From a virus, in the IMG/VR virus record IMGVR_UViG_3300010938_000354, positions 1 to 32,151 of that record: a stretch of DNA of 32,151 nucleotides; one strand, written 5' to 3'. The notes under the pieces were generated by a model. That model was not told where the DNA came from and did not search any database. It saw only the letters and a list, made by a program, of their open reading frames with translations. How positions within the stretch are numbered: position 1 is the first letter of the stretch; the number at the start of each line of letters is the position of its first letter. Below, piece by piece: positions 21,889 to 30,461 of the stretch. A program made the position numbers and the translations under genes.

Positions 21889-21912
21889 GGGGGTAGCTCA
21901 AGAGCTACCCCC
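21889..21912. repeat. 24-bp palindrome, copy 1 (11-bp perfect stem)
   Basis: GGGGGTAGCTC-AA-GAGCTACCCCC is a perfect inverted repeat with a two-base centre, lying between the SSB-like gene (stop at 21966) and the next ATG (21870). A near-identical palindrome with the same geometry occurs at 29919-29942. No U-run follows on the - strand, so it is not a classical intrinsic terminator. Confidence 0.85.
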
Positions 21913-23831: not shown

Positions 23832-23991
23832 CGTTCACTTCCTCGACCAGTAGATTGAGAAGCTGGCCCTTGTCATCTAGGATCTCACGAACAACAAGTT
23901 TGGCATCGCAATAAGGACAAGCAAAAAATACATCTTTGTCTGGGACATACTCATCCAGGTTGAGCGAGCACCTCGGGCACGCGAGCCACAT
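23818..23991 (-). CDS. Zinc-ribbon microprotein
   Basis: A 57-residue ORF with two CxxC knuckles: C5-P-R-C8 and C25-P-Y-C28, 16 residues apart, a classic zinc ribbon. A short helical tail follows (GQLLNLLVEEVNDAL). GAAGGAG precedes the ATG. It overlaps the end of the helicase gene by 41 bases and the nuclease start by 14 bases, each in a different frame. It may act as a detached DNA-binding or adaptor module for the helicase or nuclease; this is inferred from position only. Confidence 0.75.
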   Translation of the reverse strand: MWLACPRCSLNLDEYVPDKDVFFACPYCDAKLVVREILDDKGQLLNLLVEEVNDALH

Positions 23992-25351
23992 ATGCCTGAA
24001 CTCCTTCGATGATTTCTTGTTTGTTATTCAAAGCCTGCCACATCATTTTCTCGATTGGTTCACCAGAAAGAACTGTTATGACTTCCACAGGGTGGTCAGC
24101 CCCGAGCCGTGCAAACCGATGCTCCCACTGCTCAACATCTTTGGGAGACCATGGCAAGTCTAGCAAAATAGCGTGCGTTGTTTCTTGGAGATTGAGCCCC
24201 ATGCCCCCAGTTTGAATGGTCATTGCCAGAACTGAGCCTGAAGTCTTGAACCGCTCAATGATTTGCCGGCGCTCTTCCGATGAGCACTCTCCAATGAGAA
24301 GATCGCCACCGACTCCTTTGACAATCTTCTGAAGAGGCTCTATGAAATTGGAGCCAATGACAATCTTGGCCTGGGAAACCTGGAGCTTTTCTTTGATCCA
24401 GTCAACAACAAACTCGACTTTGCCTTTCGCGCAAGATAGCCGGAGGCGCTGTATCAAGTCAAGCCCCGCAGCCGACCGCAAAGGAACAGTGAAAAGCCCA
24501 GTTGGAACCTCGATGGGAATGTCCAATGTGATAGTACGACGCAAGATGTCTGGAATTTTGACACTTCCCTTTGGTCTTGACACAGAAAAAGCCGACAATT
24601 CTTCTCCCAATTCGTCAAGATTCGAGGCTCCTGAAAGATCCCATCCCCATGGAGTTTTTGTCGCATCACAGTATCTCAAAACCCAAGACCAATACTCGTA
24701 CTTCTCACGCTGGCGACAGAGATAGAAGATCGGCCACAAATCCAAGGGCCTGTTGACCATTGGTGTTCCGCTCAAGAGAAGCACCCTAGAAGCTTTCCTA
24801 GCCAAATCGTATGTCAACTTACTGCGACGCGCCTTAGGATTCTTCACCTGAGTTACTTCGTCACAAATGATCGCAAACTCGCCTTCCATACGAACGTACT
24901 GCACGCGCTCGTAGGTCGTGAGAACCCACTGACGGTCTCCATAGCCTACTACTTTTACTACTCCCCCAGGAAGGATCTCCGTAATTGTTCCAGGATCAGC
25001 TAACAGAATCTCGTCTTTCCATTGTGGAATCAGAGACTTCATCGTCACGACAACTGTTGGCATGCCCTGATATTTTGCCCAGACAATCGCCTGAAGTGTT
25101 TTTCCATAGCCAGGCGGGTCAGCTAGAAGAGCATAGGGAAGCGCTAGAAGTCTCGCTACGCCTTCCCTTTGATGCGGCATAAGAACTCTACTTCCGCAAG
25201 TCTCCGGAGCTTCCTTTGTGTCCTGGACAAAGGGAGACATGCCGAGAAGTCGCCTAGTTCTTGGTGTATCAGGAAGGCTCCAAAGATTCTTTCCAACAAA
25301 GCGCCTTCCTTCTAGAGAGGACGCAAGTGGGTTTGCTGTAAGAAACCTCAT
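23951..25351 (-). CDS. SNF2-family (SF2) DNA helicase/translocase
   Basis: A 466-residue protein with all SF2/SNF2 motifs: Q-like LMPHQREGV, Walker A ADPPGYGKT (around 77-85), DEVTQ in place of DEAH (D164-E165) with the SNF2-typical KNPKAR after it, SGTPMVN (194-200), TIQTGGMGLNLQ and QWEHRFARLG (motif VI). Length is that of minimal phage SMARCAL1/HARP-like enzymes, which remodel branched DNA or displace proteins during replication. The ATG overlaps the stop of the accessory gene before it (ATGA), so the accessory cluster and replication genes share one transcript. Confidence 0.9.
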   Translation of the reverse strand: MRFLTANPLASSLEGRRFVGKNLWSLPDTPRTRRLLGMSPFVQDTKEAPETCGSRVLMPHQREGVARLLALPYALLADPPGYGKTLQAIVWAKYQGMPTVVVTMKSLIPQWKDEILLADPGTITEILPGGVVKVVGYGDRQWVLTTYERVQYVRMEGEFAIICDEVTQVKNPKARRSKLTYDLARKASRVLLLSGTPMVNRPLDLWPIFYLCRQREKYEYWSWVLRYCDATKTPWGWDLSGASNLDELGEELSAFSVSRPKGSVKIPDILRRTITLDIPIEVPTGLFTVPLRSAAGLDLIQRLRLSCAKGKVEFVVDWIKEKLQVSQAKIVIGSNFIEPLQKIVKGVGGDLLIGECSSEERRQIIERFKTSGSVLAMTIQTGGMGLNLQETTHAILLDLPWSPKDVEQWEHRFARLGADHPVEVITVLSGEPIEKMMWQALNNKQEIIEGVQAYVARVPEVLAQPG

Positions 25352-26187
25352 AGAACTTTCTTCAGCAGCTTGTCAGCAAACTCTGGGAGCATTTCTACTG
25401 GTTTATCGGAGTAGAAGCTGCCTCGACCAGACACCACAAGCCAATGATCTTGGAATAAAACAACAATCTCCCCCCGCGAATCCCTTCCGACACGCTTTGC
25501 GTTTCCAATTTCTCTAATTGTCTTCATAGCCTTTCCAAAACTCAAGAGCTTTCTTGGCAAGTCAATAGAATAACCTTCAGTCCCAGGCCCTAGAGCCCAA
25601 GTCAAAAGGTTATACGGCATATATAAACCGTGGAACTTCAGTCTATGGTCCGGATACTCAAAGGCACACCTTCCAGGGTCAACAATATCGCCTTCCCAAT
25701 TGATAGCAACCGCTGGAATGCTACTACCAGAGACTTCTAGCGAGAAAACCCAAACAAGTCCGTCATAAATAACCATTGAATCCTTGTGACTCCCTTCGCG
25801 CAACCCATAGCGAGACCTAATACTTTGAGCAAAACCAGGAGAGACTGAACACTTTCTGAGCCACCCCATGCCTATATTACTGATTGTGACGTTGGGGGCT
25901 TTCTCTAAGCGCTTCTTCTCCCGCTCGTATACCTGGAGAAGAAGCTCCTTGTCGTAAGTGTCCTTGTGAACAATTGCATTACAGGAATTGAAAATTACCG
26001 GAGGCCCATACCATGCTTCTGGAAGATACTTCGGATCAAACAAGTACATCAAGCCAAAGGAGTCAGCCCAGTATTTTCTAAATATCTTACTGAGCTTCTT
26101 TTCTTCCAGAGTCTCTCTAAGCTGTTTTTGATCAGTATATATCTTTCTGACTCTTTCCCATCTATATGGAGGCTTTTTGAAAATCAT
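25348..26187 (-). CDS. Unknown protein family, paralogue A (NLLTWALGPG family)
   Basis: A 279-residue protein from the ATG at 26187 (GGAG eight bases upstream; ATGA overlap with paralogue B). It shares with the genes at 26184-27038 and 28980-29897: the start MIFxxxPYxW, TYDKxLxLQV followed by EKKRLEKAPNV, GMGWLR, SRYGLR, YDGLVWVFSLEV, AINWEGDIV, an invariant Cys (C174), then NLLTWALGPG (193-202). The C-terminal KPVEMLPEFADKLL is nearly identical to paralogue B. I see no signal peptide, membrane segment or known catalytic motif. The invariant Cys 19 residues before the signature is a candidate active site. Context links it to an E1-like gene. Confidence 0.7.
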   Translation of the reverse strand: MIFKKPPYRWERVRKIYTDQKQLRETLEEKKLSKIFRKYWADSFGLMYLFDPKYLPEAWYGPPVIFNSCNAIVHKDTYDKELLLQVYEREKKRLEKAPNVTISNIGMGWLRKCSVSPGFAQSIRSRYGLREGSHKDSMVIYDGLVWVFSLEVSGSSIPAVAINWEGDIVDPGRCAFEYPDHRLKFHGLYMPYNLLTWALGPGTEGYSIDLPRKLLSFGKAMKTIREIGNAKRVGRDSRGEIVVLFQDHWLVVSGRGSFYSDKPVEMLPEFADKLLKKVL

Positions 26188-27038
26188 AAAAATTTCTCCA
26201 GCAGCTTGTCTGCAAATTCGGGGAGCATTTCTACTGGCTTGTAGTTTGTTGAATATGTTCCACGGCGGCCGGAGATAACATGCCAATTGTTGTCATAGAA
26301 CGCCACGACTTCACCAAACGGATCCCTACCAACTCTCTTTGCTGAGCCTTTTACAGTAATCTGCTCCAAAACTCTTCCGAGCGCAGCAAGCTTCCTGTCT
26401 CTAGATTCAGTATCATAAAACTCAAGGTAACCGCTATCGTAGAGCCCTGGTCCTAGAGCCCAAGTCAGGAGGTTATGCCGAGTGTAAAGCCCATGGAATG
26501 GCATATTATGATCGTGGTGCTCTAGGACACAGTCAGTGGAGCAGATTACGTCTCCCTCCCAATTGATAGCTATGGTATTTAGAAGCTTACTGTCAACTTC
26601 CAGGTCAAAGAACCAAGCTACACCATCATAGATAATCGAGCGCTGCTTTACACTGTCAACTCGCATTCCGTATCGAGTCCTACACCCAGGATTATACAAG
26701 CCAAACTCTCGAAGCCATCCCATCCCAACTCCTACAATTCTGACATTTGGAGCTTTCTCTAGGCGCCTTTTCTCTCGCTCAAGGACCTGAAGAAAAAGCC
26801 CCTTGTCATATGTTTCTTTGCAGAAGATTCTGTAGCCGTCATAATACATAGGGACTTTAGGGCCTTCTTCAGGAATCTCATCCGGAGCGAAAAGAGCAAC
26901 GCCGTGCTTTGCTGATTCGCATAGCTCACTGAATAGCCTAGACAGTTTCCTTTCCTCAGGAGTCTCTATAAGCTGTTCTTGAGCAGTATATATCTTCCTA
27001 ACTCTTTCCCATCTATATGGAGGCTTGTCGAAGATCAT
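26184..27038 (-). CDS. Unknown protein family, paralogue B (NLLTWALGPG family)
   Basis: A 284-residue protein from the ATG at 27038, preceded by a very strong GGGGAGGGGAG and overlapping the metalloprotein stop (ATGA). It is closest to paralogue A: both begin MIF-K-PPYRWERVRKIYT and end VEMLPEFADKLL-K-L. Shared internal blocks are LEREKRRLEKAPNV, GVGMGWLRE, TRYGMR, IIYDGVAWFFDLEV and AINWEGDV. The invariant Cys (C170) is followed after 19 residues by NLLTWALGPG (189-198). The middle regions differ strongly, so A and B are an older duplication rather than an assembly artefact. Function unknown. Confidence 0.7.
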   Translation of the reverse strand: MIFDKPPYRWERVRKIYTAQEQLIETPEERKLSRLFSELCESAKHGVALFAPDEIPEEGPKVPMYYDGYRIFCKETYDKGLFLQVLEREKRRLEKAPNVRIVGVGMGWLREFGLYNPGCRTRYGMRVDSVKQRSIIYDGVAWFFDLEVDSKLLNTIAINWEGDVICSTDCVLEHHDHNMPFHGLYTRHNLLTWALGPGLYDSGYLEFYDTESRDRKLAALGRVLEQITVKGSAKRVGRDPFGEVVAFYDNNWHVISGRRGTYSTNYKPVEMLPEFADKLLEKFL

Positions 27039-27412
27039 CGTACTCCCCTCCCCCAGTTTGTAGTTTGAACACAATGTTGTACAATCTCAGCTCTACGGAG
27101 ATTCTTGTGCCTCTTGTCATAGTCCCTCAGCCAACGAACGACAAGAGGCACAATAGCAGGACGATAGAGAGCCAGGAATGAAGCAGCCCAACAGTCAGCC
27201 CGTTGCTCCGCAAGTCCTGACCCCTCTTTGTCCTGGCTCACGACATGCCCATATTCGTGAGCCAGGACAAACTCCTGCATGTACTTAGGAAGTGACAGAA
27301 ACTTCTTCTCGTCAATGAAGATTATTGACGTGTCGCTTCCAAATTCGGTCCTGGCCACAAATGGCATATCCGCGTGACTCAGGACAACAATCTGCAGGAG
27401 CAGAGGGAGCAT
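27035..27412 (-). CDS. Small HExxH metallopeptidase-like protein
   Basis: A 125-residue protein from the ATG at 27412 (GGAG six bases upstream). H52-E-Y-G-H56 in EFVLAHEYGHVVSQ, followed by LAEQRADCWAA (E69/D73), is the zinc site and third-ligand helix of minimal gluzincin-type peptidases. The first 12 residues (MLPLLLQIVVLS) are hydrophobic and could be a weak signal peptide or a buried strand. The C-terminus is basic (YDKRHKNLRRAE). It lies between a possible Cys-protease/zinc-ribbon gene and paralogue B, with the stop overlapping the latter (ATGA). It probably processes a cluster or host protein; the substrate is unknown. Confidence 0.7.
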   Translation of the reverse strand: MLPLLLQIVVLSHADMPFVARTEFGSDTSIIFIDEKKFLSLPKYMQEFVLAHEYGHVVSQDKEGSGLAEQRADCWAASFLALYRPAIVPLVVRWLRDYDKRHKNLRRAEIVQHCVQTTNWGRGVR

Positions 27413-27415
27413 ATG

Positions 27416-28393
27416 TCACTCCATCCATTCGTAGTCTTCTACTTTCTTCGGACTATATTTGACATGATACTCCTTACCGCACTTGCATCGGCCAAACAAC
27501 TTGTCGCGCTCTGCTGGCCTGGATAGCTCCGGTATGGAGTCTTTGAACTCCACTTTACACTCACTACATCTATAAGCACTCCAAGCTTCCACCCAGCAGG
27601 GAGCGCAGACAAGACTATAGGCACGAGAATTTGCACCACACCGCAAACACATCTTCTTCTTCTTCTTGGGCTTATCCCACCAATTCCAGTTATCACTTCC
27701 CCAATAAGGCCAGCCAGGAAAGGTATACCCAAAGCCGAATGTCGCTGCCCAATCAGGCTCCTCTACTTCAATCTCCTCATTAACTGTCTCTACAGGATCG
27801 GGTTTGCCATATAGCCAGGGATAATCATTGACTCTGCCCACCTGAATTGAGATATGCCAGTCCTTGTCACATGGCGCCCGGGGAGCTAAATACCAGGCAT
27901 GGCCATGAAGGGAAAGCTCTGGAGCCGTGCCAACAATTGACGGCCTTAGAGGCTCGTCTGCAATCTCAAAGCCGAAAAGTTTATCTGCATCCGGATGGTC
28001 AGGCTTAGGATCGGCAAAGCCTAAGAGTCTTTGCCAAACCCGAAGCTGTTGATTGATTGGATACCACTTAGGGACTCTGACTCTGGTAACACGAAGCCCA
28101 TAAGGTTCTACGACTCCCTGTATTGCGAAGGGAGTCAGAGGAACAGGAGTCCCAGCCCCGGCGAGTCCTTTGATTGTCTCGAAGAACTCTCTGTCGTGAC
28201 TGTCCAGAATCCCGAGTCCCAACGCCTTCAGGAACTCCTCCGTGGCGTTGAAGACACAAGAAGCTGGGTTGATCAACTTTTTTCTAAACTTTCTTACTTT
28301 CGCCTCAATCTGCACTACACCATCCTTGATCTCATGTTTCCTGGCATAGTGTATGTAATGCTCTGGAATCTCAAATCCATTCAGGGTTTTCAT
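27416..28393 (-). CDS. Possible Cys-His peptidase domain with C-terminal zinc ribbons
   Basis: A 325-residue protein overlapping the E1-like stop (ATGA). Residues 40-190 look like a papain-like or C39/OTU-like cysteine peptidase: NPASCVFNATEEFLKALGLG (C46 at a helix start), a GTPVPLTPFAIQGVV-PYGLRVTRVRVP segment and HGHAWYLAPR (H165). After an acidic, Trp-rich linker (GWPYWGSDNWNWWDKP) and a KKKKK run come two zinc-binding modules: C249/C252/C263/C266 and C276/C279/C303/C305. Protease plus zinc ribbons beside an E1-like gene resembles the deconjugating arm of ubiquitin-like systems. The peptidase call is by pattern only; a non-catalytic DNA- or protein-binding role is possible. Confidence 0.5.
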   Translation of the reverse strand: MKTLNGFEIPEHYIHYARKHEIKDGVVQIEAKVRKFRKKLINPASCVFNATEEFLKALGLGILDSHDREFFETIKGLAGAGTPVPLTPFAIQGVVEPYGLRVTRVRVPKWYPINQQLRVWQRLLGFADPKPDHPDADKLFGFEIADEPLRPSIVGTAPELSLHGHAWYLAPRAPCDKDWHISIQVGRVNDYPWLYGKPDPVETVNEEIEVEEPDWAATFGFGYTFPGWPYWGSDNWNWWDKPKKKKKMCLRCGANSRAYSLVCAPCWVEAWSAYRCSECKVEFKDSIPELSRPAERDKLFGRCKCGKEYHVKYSPKKVEDYEWME

Positions 28394-28983
28394 AGAGCCC
28401 TCCCAGGAGCTGGCGTTACGACTTGCGCGTGGAAAAGACCGTGATACAACATTTCAGCAGCTTTCACAGCAACCCGGAGCCCCTGTTCCCTCCATTTGAT
28501 CAACTCGCAGGGTGGAAGAATCAAAGGCTGCTCTTCGTACTTCTTCCATGGATCGAACCTGAAAGAAGTGCGGGCTGGGGTTGTCCAGTCTATAAATCCA
28601 ACCCCGTCGGGAGACAAAGCAATGTGACAAATAACGACATCATGTAAGAGGCCATATCTGTGAATAAGCTGACGCGTAGCAATGTTATCCACACAATCCA
28701 GAATAACGTCGCTCTTAGGAACTTGCTCAAGTCTTTCTATCCGTTGAACTAAAGCATTCGCCTTGGCTCCATAGCGGACGGTCAGAGAGTTCGCCAAGAC
28801 CTCTGCTTTCGGTTTCCAGAGATCAGGCTGATAGAACTCCTGTGTGGGCAGGTTTCTCTCTTCAACACGGTCATCATCTACAAGCAAGAACTCTGGAAGG
28901 TGGGCATGATGAGCCAGAAACTGACGACAGAGTTCGTTCACAGCAATCCCACCGACAAAGCCGCAGCCAATTAGGGTAATCAT
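28390..28983 (-). CDS. E1/ThiF-like adenylating protein
   Basis: A 197-residue protein from the ATG at 28983 (GGGAG upstream, ATGA overlap with paralogue C). It is a Rossmann ATP-binding fold of the E1/MoeB/ThiF superfamily: GCGFVGG (6-12), LLVDDDRVEERNL (D36-D38, N44) with K59 in WKPKAEVLA, then VILDCVDNIATRQLI. C159 in LILPPCELIKW could be a thiol acceptor. The Arg of the usual NLxRQ motif is replaced (NLPTQ), and no CxxC zinc pairs are seen. The length is that of a minimal adenylation domain. Family members activate C-terminal Gly carboxylates of ubiquitin-like or sulfur-carrier proteins. The partner here is unknown. Confidence 0.8.
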   Translation of the reverse strand: MITLIGCGFVGGIAVNELCRQFLAHHAHLPEFLLVDDDRVEERNLPTQEFYQPDLWKPKAEVLANSLTVRYGAKANALVQRIERLEQVPKSDVILDCVDNIATRQLIHRYGLLHDVVICHIALSPDGVGFIDWTTPARTSFRFDPWKKYEEQPLILPPCELIKWREQGLRVAVKAAEMLYHGLFHAQVVTPAPGRAL

Positions 28984-29897
28984 GGGAGTCTCCCTTTGAA
29001 CTCCTGCAAGCGCTTGGATATCAGACTGTCCACATAAGCTGGAAAAAAGACTAATGGTCTTGGGAACTTTTCTCCACAACAAGCGCAGCGCCAGATCCCG
29101 AGCCTTGCTTGAATCAAAATCCTATTATCTTCGAACCCAGCCAACTTCGATCCTCCAGAGGGAGATGGAGGTATTTTTTCTAAAACTCTTTGGAGAGGCT
29201 TTACACACTGCAGCCATGCCTCAAGCTTCGGACTCTCTGGAGCTTTTACAAGACCTGAGGCAGCGAGACCAGGACCAAGAGCCCAGGTCAAGAGGTTATA
29301 GGGAGTCCCACCCGTAAAGGTATAGTCCAAGGAGTCCATCTCCCTGATACAGCGTCCAGTATGAACAACATATCCCTCGTAATCAATGGCAACCCATAGA
29401 TGATCAGGCTTGCCATTGTAAGCAAGCCTGAAAGCCCACACAATACCATCAAAGAGAATGGGCAAATTGTCATAACGATTCTCGATAGATCTACGAATTC
29501 CATACCTAGACCTGTAGCCGTTGTCGTTTGCAAAATACTGTTTTAGTCTGAGCCACCACATACCTACTCGGTGGACAGAGACTTCCGGGGCTTGTTCTAG
29601 ACGCTTCTTCTCCTGCTCATAGACCTGCAGGAGGAGTTCCTTGTCGTAAGTATCCCTCCAAAATATGGCCTGTGCAGGATAAGTCGAGACCCTGATCGGA
29701 ATCTCTGGACCTTCGTCAGGAACTCGACCTGGATCGAAGAGCCCAGAGCTCGGATCACCCTCACTACAGATGTTGACAGCGCTTCTCCAGACTTGCGTCA
29801 ATTCTCGCTCTCTAGGAGTTTCTCTCAACTTTGGGCTCTTGGCTTCGACAAACTTGTCCTTGCGTGACCAGTAATAGGGCCGCCGCTTGAAGATCAT
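28980..29897 (-). CDS. Unknown protein family, paralogue C (NLLTWALGPG family) with CxxC C-terminus
   Basis: A 305-residue protein with a G-rich ribosome binding site. It shares MIFKRRPYYW, RDTYDKELLLQVYEQEKKRL, VGMWWLR, YRSRYGIRR, FDGIVWAFRL, AIDYEGYVV, the invariant Cys (C183) and NLLTWALGPG (201-210) with paralogues A and B, here at 18 residues from the Cys. Its C-terminal domain keeps a similar length but has CACCGEKF (C271/C273/C274) where A and B have a Ser-Gly-Arg stretch, suggesting a metal-binding variant. It is immediately upstream of, and overlaps, the E1-like gene, so the two products are probably made together. Confidence 0.7.
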   Translation of the reverse strand: MIFKRRPYYWSRKDKFVEAKSPKLRETPRERELTQVWRSAVNICSEGDPSSGLFDPGRVPDEGPEIPIRVSTYPAQAIFWRDTYDKELLLQVYEQEKKRLEQAPEVSVHRVGMWWLRLKQYFANDNGYRSRYGIRRSIENRYDNLPILFDGIVWAFRLAYNGKPDHLWVAIDYEGYVVHTGRCIREMDSLDYTFTGGTPYNLLTWALGPGLAASGLVKAPESPKLEAWLQCVKPLQRVLEKIPPSPSGGSKLAGFEDNRILIQARLGIWRCACCGEKFPRPLVFFPAYVDSLISKRLQEFKGRLP

Positions 29898-29918: not shown

Positions 29919-29942
29919 GGGGGTGGCTCTAGAGCCACCCCC
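29919..29942. repeat. 24-bp palindrome, copy 2 (11-bp perfect stem)
   Basis: GGGGGTGGCTC-TA-GAGCCACCCCC has the same length, centre and G5/C5 ends as the palindrome at 21889-21912, differing at one stem pair and the centre. It lies nine bases after the stop of the 29952-30461 gene and 21 bases before the ATG at 29897. As in copy 1, it is just upstream of a ribosome binding site. Confidence 0.85.
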
Positions 29943-29951
29943 TCAGAGTCA

Positions 29952-30461
29952 TCAACCAAGGTATGGGAACAAAGTTACAACCCAGGCAGTCGGCAAGTCC
30001 TCCCTTCTCATCGGAGTCTTGACCAAGATACGGTCTTTGTTCACCTTGTGGCCCTGTGCCTCAACCCAGGAGACAATCTTCTCTGCGAGCCTGGCTCCCA
30101 AACCACCTTTCTGAGTGCGCTCCCAGTCATCCAACTGAACCTGGTACTCCAACTGGAAGGCTGCGGTGATCTCCATGGCCTTTTCTGGAGACTCTTCGAC
30201 TGCCCGCTTCCATTCCTCCACTGGAAATTCCGGCTTCGGAGCTTCCTGCAAACCTTCCAGGTCACGAAGATCCAGGGCAAACTCTTCCTGGACACGACCA
30301 TCCTGAGCCAAGAGATGTCCAGATCCAGAGAACTGAACGACAATGGGTTCGACACTCCGATGGTCCTCAGCTTCTGGAGTGAGGACCACATGGATGGAGT
30401 CTTCAGGGAGAATGGAGACAGCAGGCTTGAGACTCTGAGTTGTGACTTCGTGGGACAGCAT
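29952..30461 (-). CDS. Unknown protein, first gene after the leftward promoter
   Basis: A 169-residue protein from the ATG at 30461, preceded by AAGGAGGG with a four-to-five-base gap, one of the best ribosome binding sites in the window. The N-terminal half has beta-strand character (SIHVVLTPE, EPIVVQFSGSGHLL, QEEFALDLRDLEGL). The C-terminal half is helical (PVEEWKRAVEESPEKAMEITAAFQLEYQVQL, GLGARLAEKIVSWVEAQ), ending AWVVTLFPYLG. There are no Cys, metal or membrane motifs. First position and strong signals predict high early expression. I recognise no family; a double-Gly end expected of a ubiquitin-like tag is absent. Confidence 0.6.
   Translation of the reverse strand: MLSHEVTTQSLKPAVSILPEDSIHVVLTPEAEDHRSVEPIVVQFSGSGHLLAQDGRVQEEFALDLRDLEGLQEAPKPEFPVEEWKRAVEESPEKAMEITAAFQLEYQVQLDDWERTQKGGLGARLAEKIVSWVEAQGHKVNKDRILVKTPMRREDLPTAWVVTLFPYLG

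Follow-up and report, generated by a model that had tools for sequence, protein, structure and literature searches.

Within the IMG/VR virus record IMGVR_UViG_3300010938_000354 (linear, 32,859 bases), we analyzed positions 1 to 32,151, a window of 32,151 nucleotides that makes up nearly the whole record, and focused on a block of six consecutive minus-strand genes, one of them encoding an E1/ThiF-like adenylating enzyme. A first-pass annotation had seen in this block a possible protein-conjugation or deconjugation system, with the E1-like enzyme as its activating component. From upstream to downstream, the genes encode paralogue A (28980-29897, 305 amino acids (aa), an orphan family directly upstream of the E1 gene), the putative E1 itself (28390-28983, 197 aa, a short form), protein P (27416-28393, 325 aa, with zinc-ribbon-like C-terminal CxxC pairs), protein M (27035-27412, 125 aa, a candidate minimal zincin), paralogue B (26184-27038, 284 aa) and paralogue C (25348-26187, 279 aa). 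All coordinates of these open reading frames (ORFs) were reproduced, as were the four ATGA overlaps at their junctions (A/E1 28980-28983; E1/P 28390-28393; M/B 27035-27038; B/C 26184-26187) and the single 3-base gap (CAT, 27413-27415) between P and M.

Judged from its residues and profile matches, the product of 28390-28983 is a genuine member of the E1/ThiF (UBA) superfamily, as had been proposed: it matches Pfam ThiF (3.1e-13) and contains the GxGxxG Rossmann motif together with most of the adenylation residues (D, N, Q, K and D). Alignment with 10 relatives revealed that G6/G8/G11, D36, D38, N44, Q48, K59, D99, R104 and C159 are invariant, the last of these across all 11 aligned E1s; we take C159 to be the equivalent of the crossover-position cysteine of ThiF (C184-type). 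The protein begins right at Rossmann beta1 with no N-terminal extension, has neither the Zn Cys pairs nor a D.GN..GQ segment, and shares H120, L123 and W133 (an HxAL...W motif) with short E1s of huge phages and cyanobacteria. PRTRC_ThiF and ThiF rank on top among NCBIfam models, with no peptide-maturation model among the matches listed, and the best of them, PRTRC_ThiF (2.2e-12), scores 46.8 bits against a curated cut-off of 144.75 that it does not reach. PADLOC matches include E1-E2 (1.8e-5) and BilD (1.5e-4), and relatives by sequence in the PDB are E. coli ThiF and MoeB only (1zud, 1zfn, 1jw9).

We additionally examined the gene context of E1 relatives at 45 viral and 80 genome loci (L-numbers below are locus labels). 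Using hidden Markov models (HMMs) built here, we detected three recurrent partners among the 21 viral loci whose E1 has the short-form motif (a few near-duplicates among them): a protein we call X6 (19/21), a JAB protein (20/21) and a ubiquitin-like (Ubl-like) protein (20/21). X6 is an uncharacterised cysteine protein of ~300 aa, with a GICL cysteine followed by D..F.L.SL, and the small protein is 85-90 aa in huge phages and ends in RPKTPFG; neither has a Pfam match, and we call the latter Ubl-like because of its size, its C-terminal glycine and its context. Prok-JAB matches two of the cassette JABs tested at 2.2e-5, slightly below cut-off. On huge-phage contigs these genes form a compact X6-JAB-Ubl-like-E1 cassette (L049:3514-6564, L050:4330-6567, L053:4335-6567, with similar arrangements among L020-L061), for which we found no name in the literature searched, where mainly a 2006 survey and work on cyclic-oligonucleotide-based antiphage signaling (CBASS) and on Bil surfaced. 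The huge-phage cassettes (L013, L020-L061) resemble the block in their phage-borne short E1 of ~190-220 aa with the HxAL...W motif and the cysteine, and in the Cys-bearing protein of ~300 aa upstream of it; they differ in having a JAB and an 85-90 aa Ubl-like protein, both missing from the window, and in that the Cys protein of the window shows no detectable kinship to X6.

In many cyanobacteria, X6 lies immediately upstream of a short E1 and neither Ubl nor JAB was detected in the vicinity, such as at L095:5074-6570, L121:5063-6570 and L117:3171-4625, where a vWA-domain protein often precedes X6. The cyanobacterial pair is therefore a two-gene precedent without a detectable Ubl or JAB, in which X6 occupies the slot that paralogue A occupies here. 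At L095, L117 and L121, as in the window, a Cys-bearing orphan protein stands right before E1, the difference being that the cyanobacterial partner is a single copy of X6 rather than A, B and C. Further relatives lie in Prok-E2_D/JAB/E1 cassettes on plasmids, viral contigs and in Chloroflexota (Prok-E2_D match 1.6e-45), and dnaN is found near 4 of 21 E2-D loci. We also observed E1 cassettes of plasmids, phages and Chloroflexota contigs adjoining the gene for the sliding clamp (DNA polymerase III beta) at L008, L010, L018, L063, L074, L088 and L089, with the gene annotated as such in L006; modification of the sliding clamp is a natural idea suggested by these neighbors.

Three better-known groups offer points of comparison. 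PRTRC and related Prok-E2_D/JAB/ThiF plasmid cassettes (Iyer et al. 2006, PMC1779556, table row 6d) share with the block a position beside replication genes, and PRTRC_ThiF is the NCBIfam model nearest to the window E1, but the window has no homologue of PRTRC A (JAB), B (E2-D) or C (Ub-like), and its E1 lacks their D.GN..GQ segment. CBASS Cap2/Cap3 and Bil (BilD) have the E1 adenylation domain in common with the block, which differs in being phage-carried; no cyclase, BilA-C, fused E2, JAB or Ubl was seen when the block was scanned with PADLOC and all window ORFs with the JAB and E2-D HMMs. E. coli ThiF and MoeB likewise share the adenylation domain; the window has no recognised thiamine or molybdopterin genes, and its E1 has none of their Zn Cys pairs. 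Because relatives of this E1 are almost always accompanied by conjugation genes, an E1 of this lineage would be expected to activate a Ubl-like C-terminus, and since these relatives sit with Ubl, JAB and E2 or with X6, it is reasonable to read the E1 itself as a conjugation enzyme.

Our analysis also confirmed that A, B and C are paralogues over their full length, with C 53% identical to B and 38% identical to A. The nonsynonymous rate stays below the (saturated) synonymous rate in both comparisons (B-C dN 0.41, dS 1.96; A-C dN 0.67, dS 1.61), so that all three are coding and under purifying selection. The invariant cysteine noted in the first-pass annotation is the sole cysteine aligned in all three proteins (C174 in C, C170 in B, C183 in A) and forms one of ~85 identical columns in the three-sequence alignment; a C-terminal CxCC motif is present in paralogue A only. 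Searches of Pfam, PHROGs, NCBIfam, PADLOC, PDB sequences, phages, plasmids, viral contigs and genome contigs, the last of these with a conserved A/B/C segment, gave no match for A, B and C at the sensitivity used. They are likewise absent from 51 records bearing related E1s and from the surroundings of the 80 genome E1s; weak whole-record matches in L065 and L066 (E 0.009 and 0.036 over 51 records) were judged to be chance.

An AlphaFold model of the paralogues from three-sequence input reached a mean predicted local distance difference test score (pLDDT) of 52.9, with a moderately confident core at residues ~50-113 and 140-170. In the low-confidence model of paralogue C, this core would comprise a helix (80-94) and strands at 100-113, 139-152, 160-162 and 168-170; read in order, a helix, a pair of long and a pair of short strands, Cys174 and a further helix give a loosely E2-like layout, which we do not count as evidence. 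A fold search with this model against PDB and BFVD gave no match of significance and no UBC/E2 fold among the matches listed, the model being too weak to exclude one.

The two remaining proteins of the block show weaker family signals. M has the HEYGH motif for which it had been called a metalloprotein, followed by E..AD..AA.FL, and matches PHROG 87 (metallo-protease, 1.2e-4); its match to Peptidase_M78 is weak (E 0.0013, 19 bits against a cut-off of 22), and we describe it as weakly M78 (IrrE/ImmA)-like. The coding sequence of M also holds two perfect inverted repeats (27227-27271, 17-nt arms; 27105-27153, 14-nt arms). For P, the C-terminal CxxC pairs can be read directly from the sequence and the only family match is DZR_2 (Pfam, E 0.068), while the N-terminal half has by eye the look of a Cys/His hydrolase (C46, GHAWYL). 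P has no match in PDB sequences, phages or plasmids, nor any sequence match to papain-like, C39 or OTU Cys peptidases, and its AlphaFold model (pLDDT 31) was unusable. Like A, B and C, neither P nor M has a homologue beside any of the related E1s.

The reading we favor, at a probability of roughly 0.4, is that the block encodes a divergent Ubl-type E1 working with fast-evolving, phage-specific partners. The E1 would adenylate the C-terminus of a small protein, perhaps supplied by the host, perhaps a phage product that escaped recognition, and form a thioester with it at Cys159; at least one of A, B and C would then receive, position or be modified by the activated chain, and the M78-like zincin M and the zinc-ribbon protein P may process precursors or conjugates. 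E1-based activation is the likely part of this scheme, and the persistence of three paralogues around the E1, P and M genes suggests one module. Of the conjugation system proposed in the first-pass annotation, what stands is a real E1, its nearest kin being encoded in Ubl/JAB/E2 (or X6) cassettes of huge phages, plasmids and bacteria; the E2 role assigned to the paralogues is unsupported, and the deconjugating roles of P and M are putative. That annotation had also named occurrence of the E1 gene without the other genes as counting against its proposal, and the family does occur in dozens of loci lacking A/B/C, P and M, yet with partners of its own there.

Several results weigh against the favored reading. 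The best relative of the E1 is merely 30% identical to it, and in a maximum-likelihood tree the E1 forms a long branch beside the huge-phage/cyanobacterial short-form clade, its placement unsure. The arginine of NLxRQ is replaced by Thr47; it is also lost in several cassette E1s (NLNNQ, NLRNQ and NLSTQ in the alignment with relatives), so we do not count the replacement as excluding E1 membership. With HMMs built here, no Ubl, JAB, E2-D, PRTRC_C or X6 was found in any window ORF of at least 30 aa, in agreement with the first-pass annotation, which had reported no Ubl or JAB. Assignment of A, B and C to Prok-E2_D was rejected, as far as a profile of three sequences has the power to tell: there is no sequence similarity, and the profile comparison stays at noise level. 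Their assignment to X6, raised by look-alike strings (IVDPGRC in one family and IVDAGICL in the other), was not accepted on the same three-sequence profile: a first comparison with the X6 profile scored 20.9 and was surpassed by a shuffled profile (24.0), and a deeper one scored 22.3 against 21.9 for the best of 60 shuffles, in an alignment that misses the cysteine. Finally, viral- and genome-contig scans returned no second genome with the same gene set, so that co-conservation is not demonstrable. No relative of the block turned up when viral contigs were scanned with E1, paralogue B, the paralogue alignment, the DNA polymerase or P, and a RepA-like query found seven loci, with the block at 0/7. 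A degenerate DNA pattern for NLLTWALG had a single match in viral contigs (L005), which we attribute to chance.

The strongest alternative, which we regard as quite possible, is that these are unrelated accessory genes sharing an operon, the E1 acting by itself, for instance on a sulfur carrier or Ubl of the host, while the five other products have different tasks, such as inhibiting host proteins. Phage early operons often gather accessory genes, and the absence of A/B/C from the 51 related-E1 records, along with the lack of homologues of all five near any related E1, fits such a collection; against it stand the near-continuous translational coupling, the abutment of paralogue A on E1, and the three paralogues kept flanking E1, P and M in the manner of one module. 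The model of the first-pass annotation, in which the paralogues act as E2-like transfer enzymes through their cysteine while P and M form a deconjugating arm, draws on the aligned cysteine and the adjacent E1, and we consider it unlikely: the paralogues lack similarity to Prok-E2_D, the resemblance to X6 is unconvincing, the PDB and viral fold matches listed for their weak model include no UBC fold, one aligned cysteine among so many identical columns of three sequences is weak catalytic evidence, and P yielded no usable model. Similarly doubtful is a Ubl-like activation and transfer system without recognisable Ubl, E2 or JAB, coupled to replication and recombination genes, in which the short E1 would charge a novel fold family of Cys proteins, present as three paralogues, and the zincin would replace JAB.

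Very unlikely, in our estimate, is a degenerate E1 serving counter-defence as a decoy or saboteur that binds or mis-activates host Ubl defence proteins (CBASS Cap2-type, Bil) or sulfur carriers; the early-operon location, the Arg to Thr change in NLxRQ and the lack of a detected Ubl of its own are in keeping with this, but the other adenylation residues and Cys159, needless for a pure decoy, are retained, and cassette E1s show the same arginine loss. We rate as least probable a peptide-maturation module of the microcin C7 (MccB) or pantocin type, where the ThiF-like enzyme would activate the C-terminus of a peptide by adenylation and M and P would provide the protease steps, since, although ThiF-like enzymes and proteases are found together in peptide-maturation clusters, the NCBIfam ranking and the Ubl cassettes of the relatives speak against it.

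The surroundings of the block place it among minus-strand replication and recombination genes, with a RepA-like gene and protein U upstream and an SNF2-type DNA helicase downstream (23951-25351, minus strand; SNF2-rel_dom 5e-14, PHROG 62 2.4e-70). A fifth ATGA overlap (25348-25351) couples paralogue C to this helicase and extends the coupled unit to at least seven genes; the block is best explained as one transcription unit inside a phage replication/recombination operon. We identified portal, head proteins and an endolysin (Amidase_2) in the window, as well as a DNA polymerase, a PD-(D/E)XK exonuclease, a Sak4-like annealing protein, a DUF669 protein, the SNF2 helicase and the RepA-like ATPase, and this predicted complement of portal, head, endolysin and replication genes shows the source virus to be a tailed phage. 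Protein U (29952-30461, minus strand, 169 aa, C-terminus ...FPYLG) has no family match in Pfam, PHROGs, NCBIfam or PADLOC; as a Ubl it was rejected, having a C-terminal glycine only and no similarity to Ubl profiles, and it is a weak candidate modifier.

We also observed a 24-base perfect palindrome that may form an RNA hairpin (29919-29942, minus strand; fold z = -2.5), marking the upstream boundary of the block shortly ahead of paralogue A, and a second copy at 21889-21912, both in intergenic gaps of the minus-strand operon. A compensatory change from a G-C to an A-T pair distinguishes the two sequences, GGGGGTGGCTCTAGAGCCACCCCC and GGGGGTAGCTCAAGAGCTACCCCC, which have no T-run, and the G-rich ribosome site of paralogue A could pair with the C-rich arm of the 29919-29942 hairpin.

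If the E1 is active together with A, B, C, P and M, the block would represent a protein-activation system in a phage record of ~33 kb in which every classical partner has been lost or replaced. Such a system would show the minimum needed for E1 chemistry, and would tie E1 cassettes to DNA replication, the setting in which some plasmid relatives, as neighbors of dnaN, are also found.

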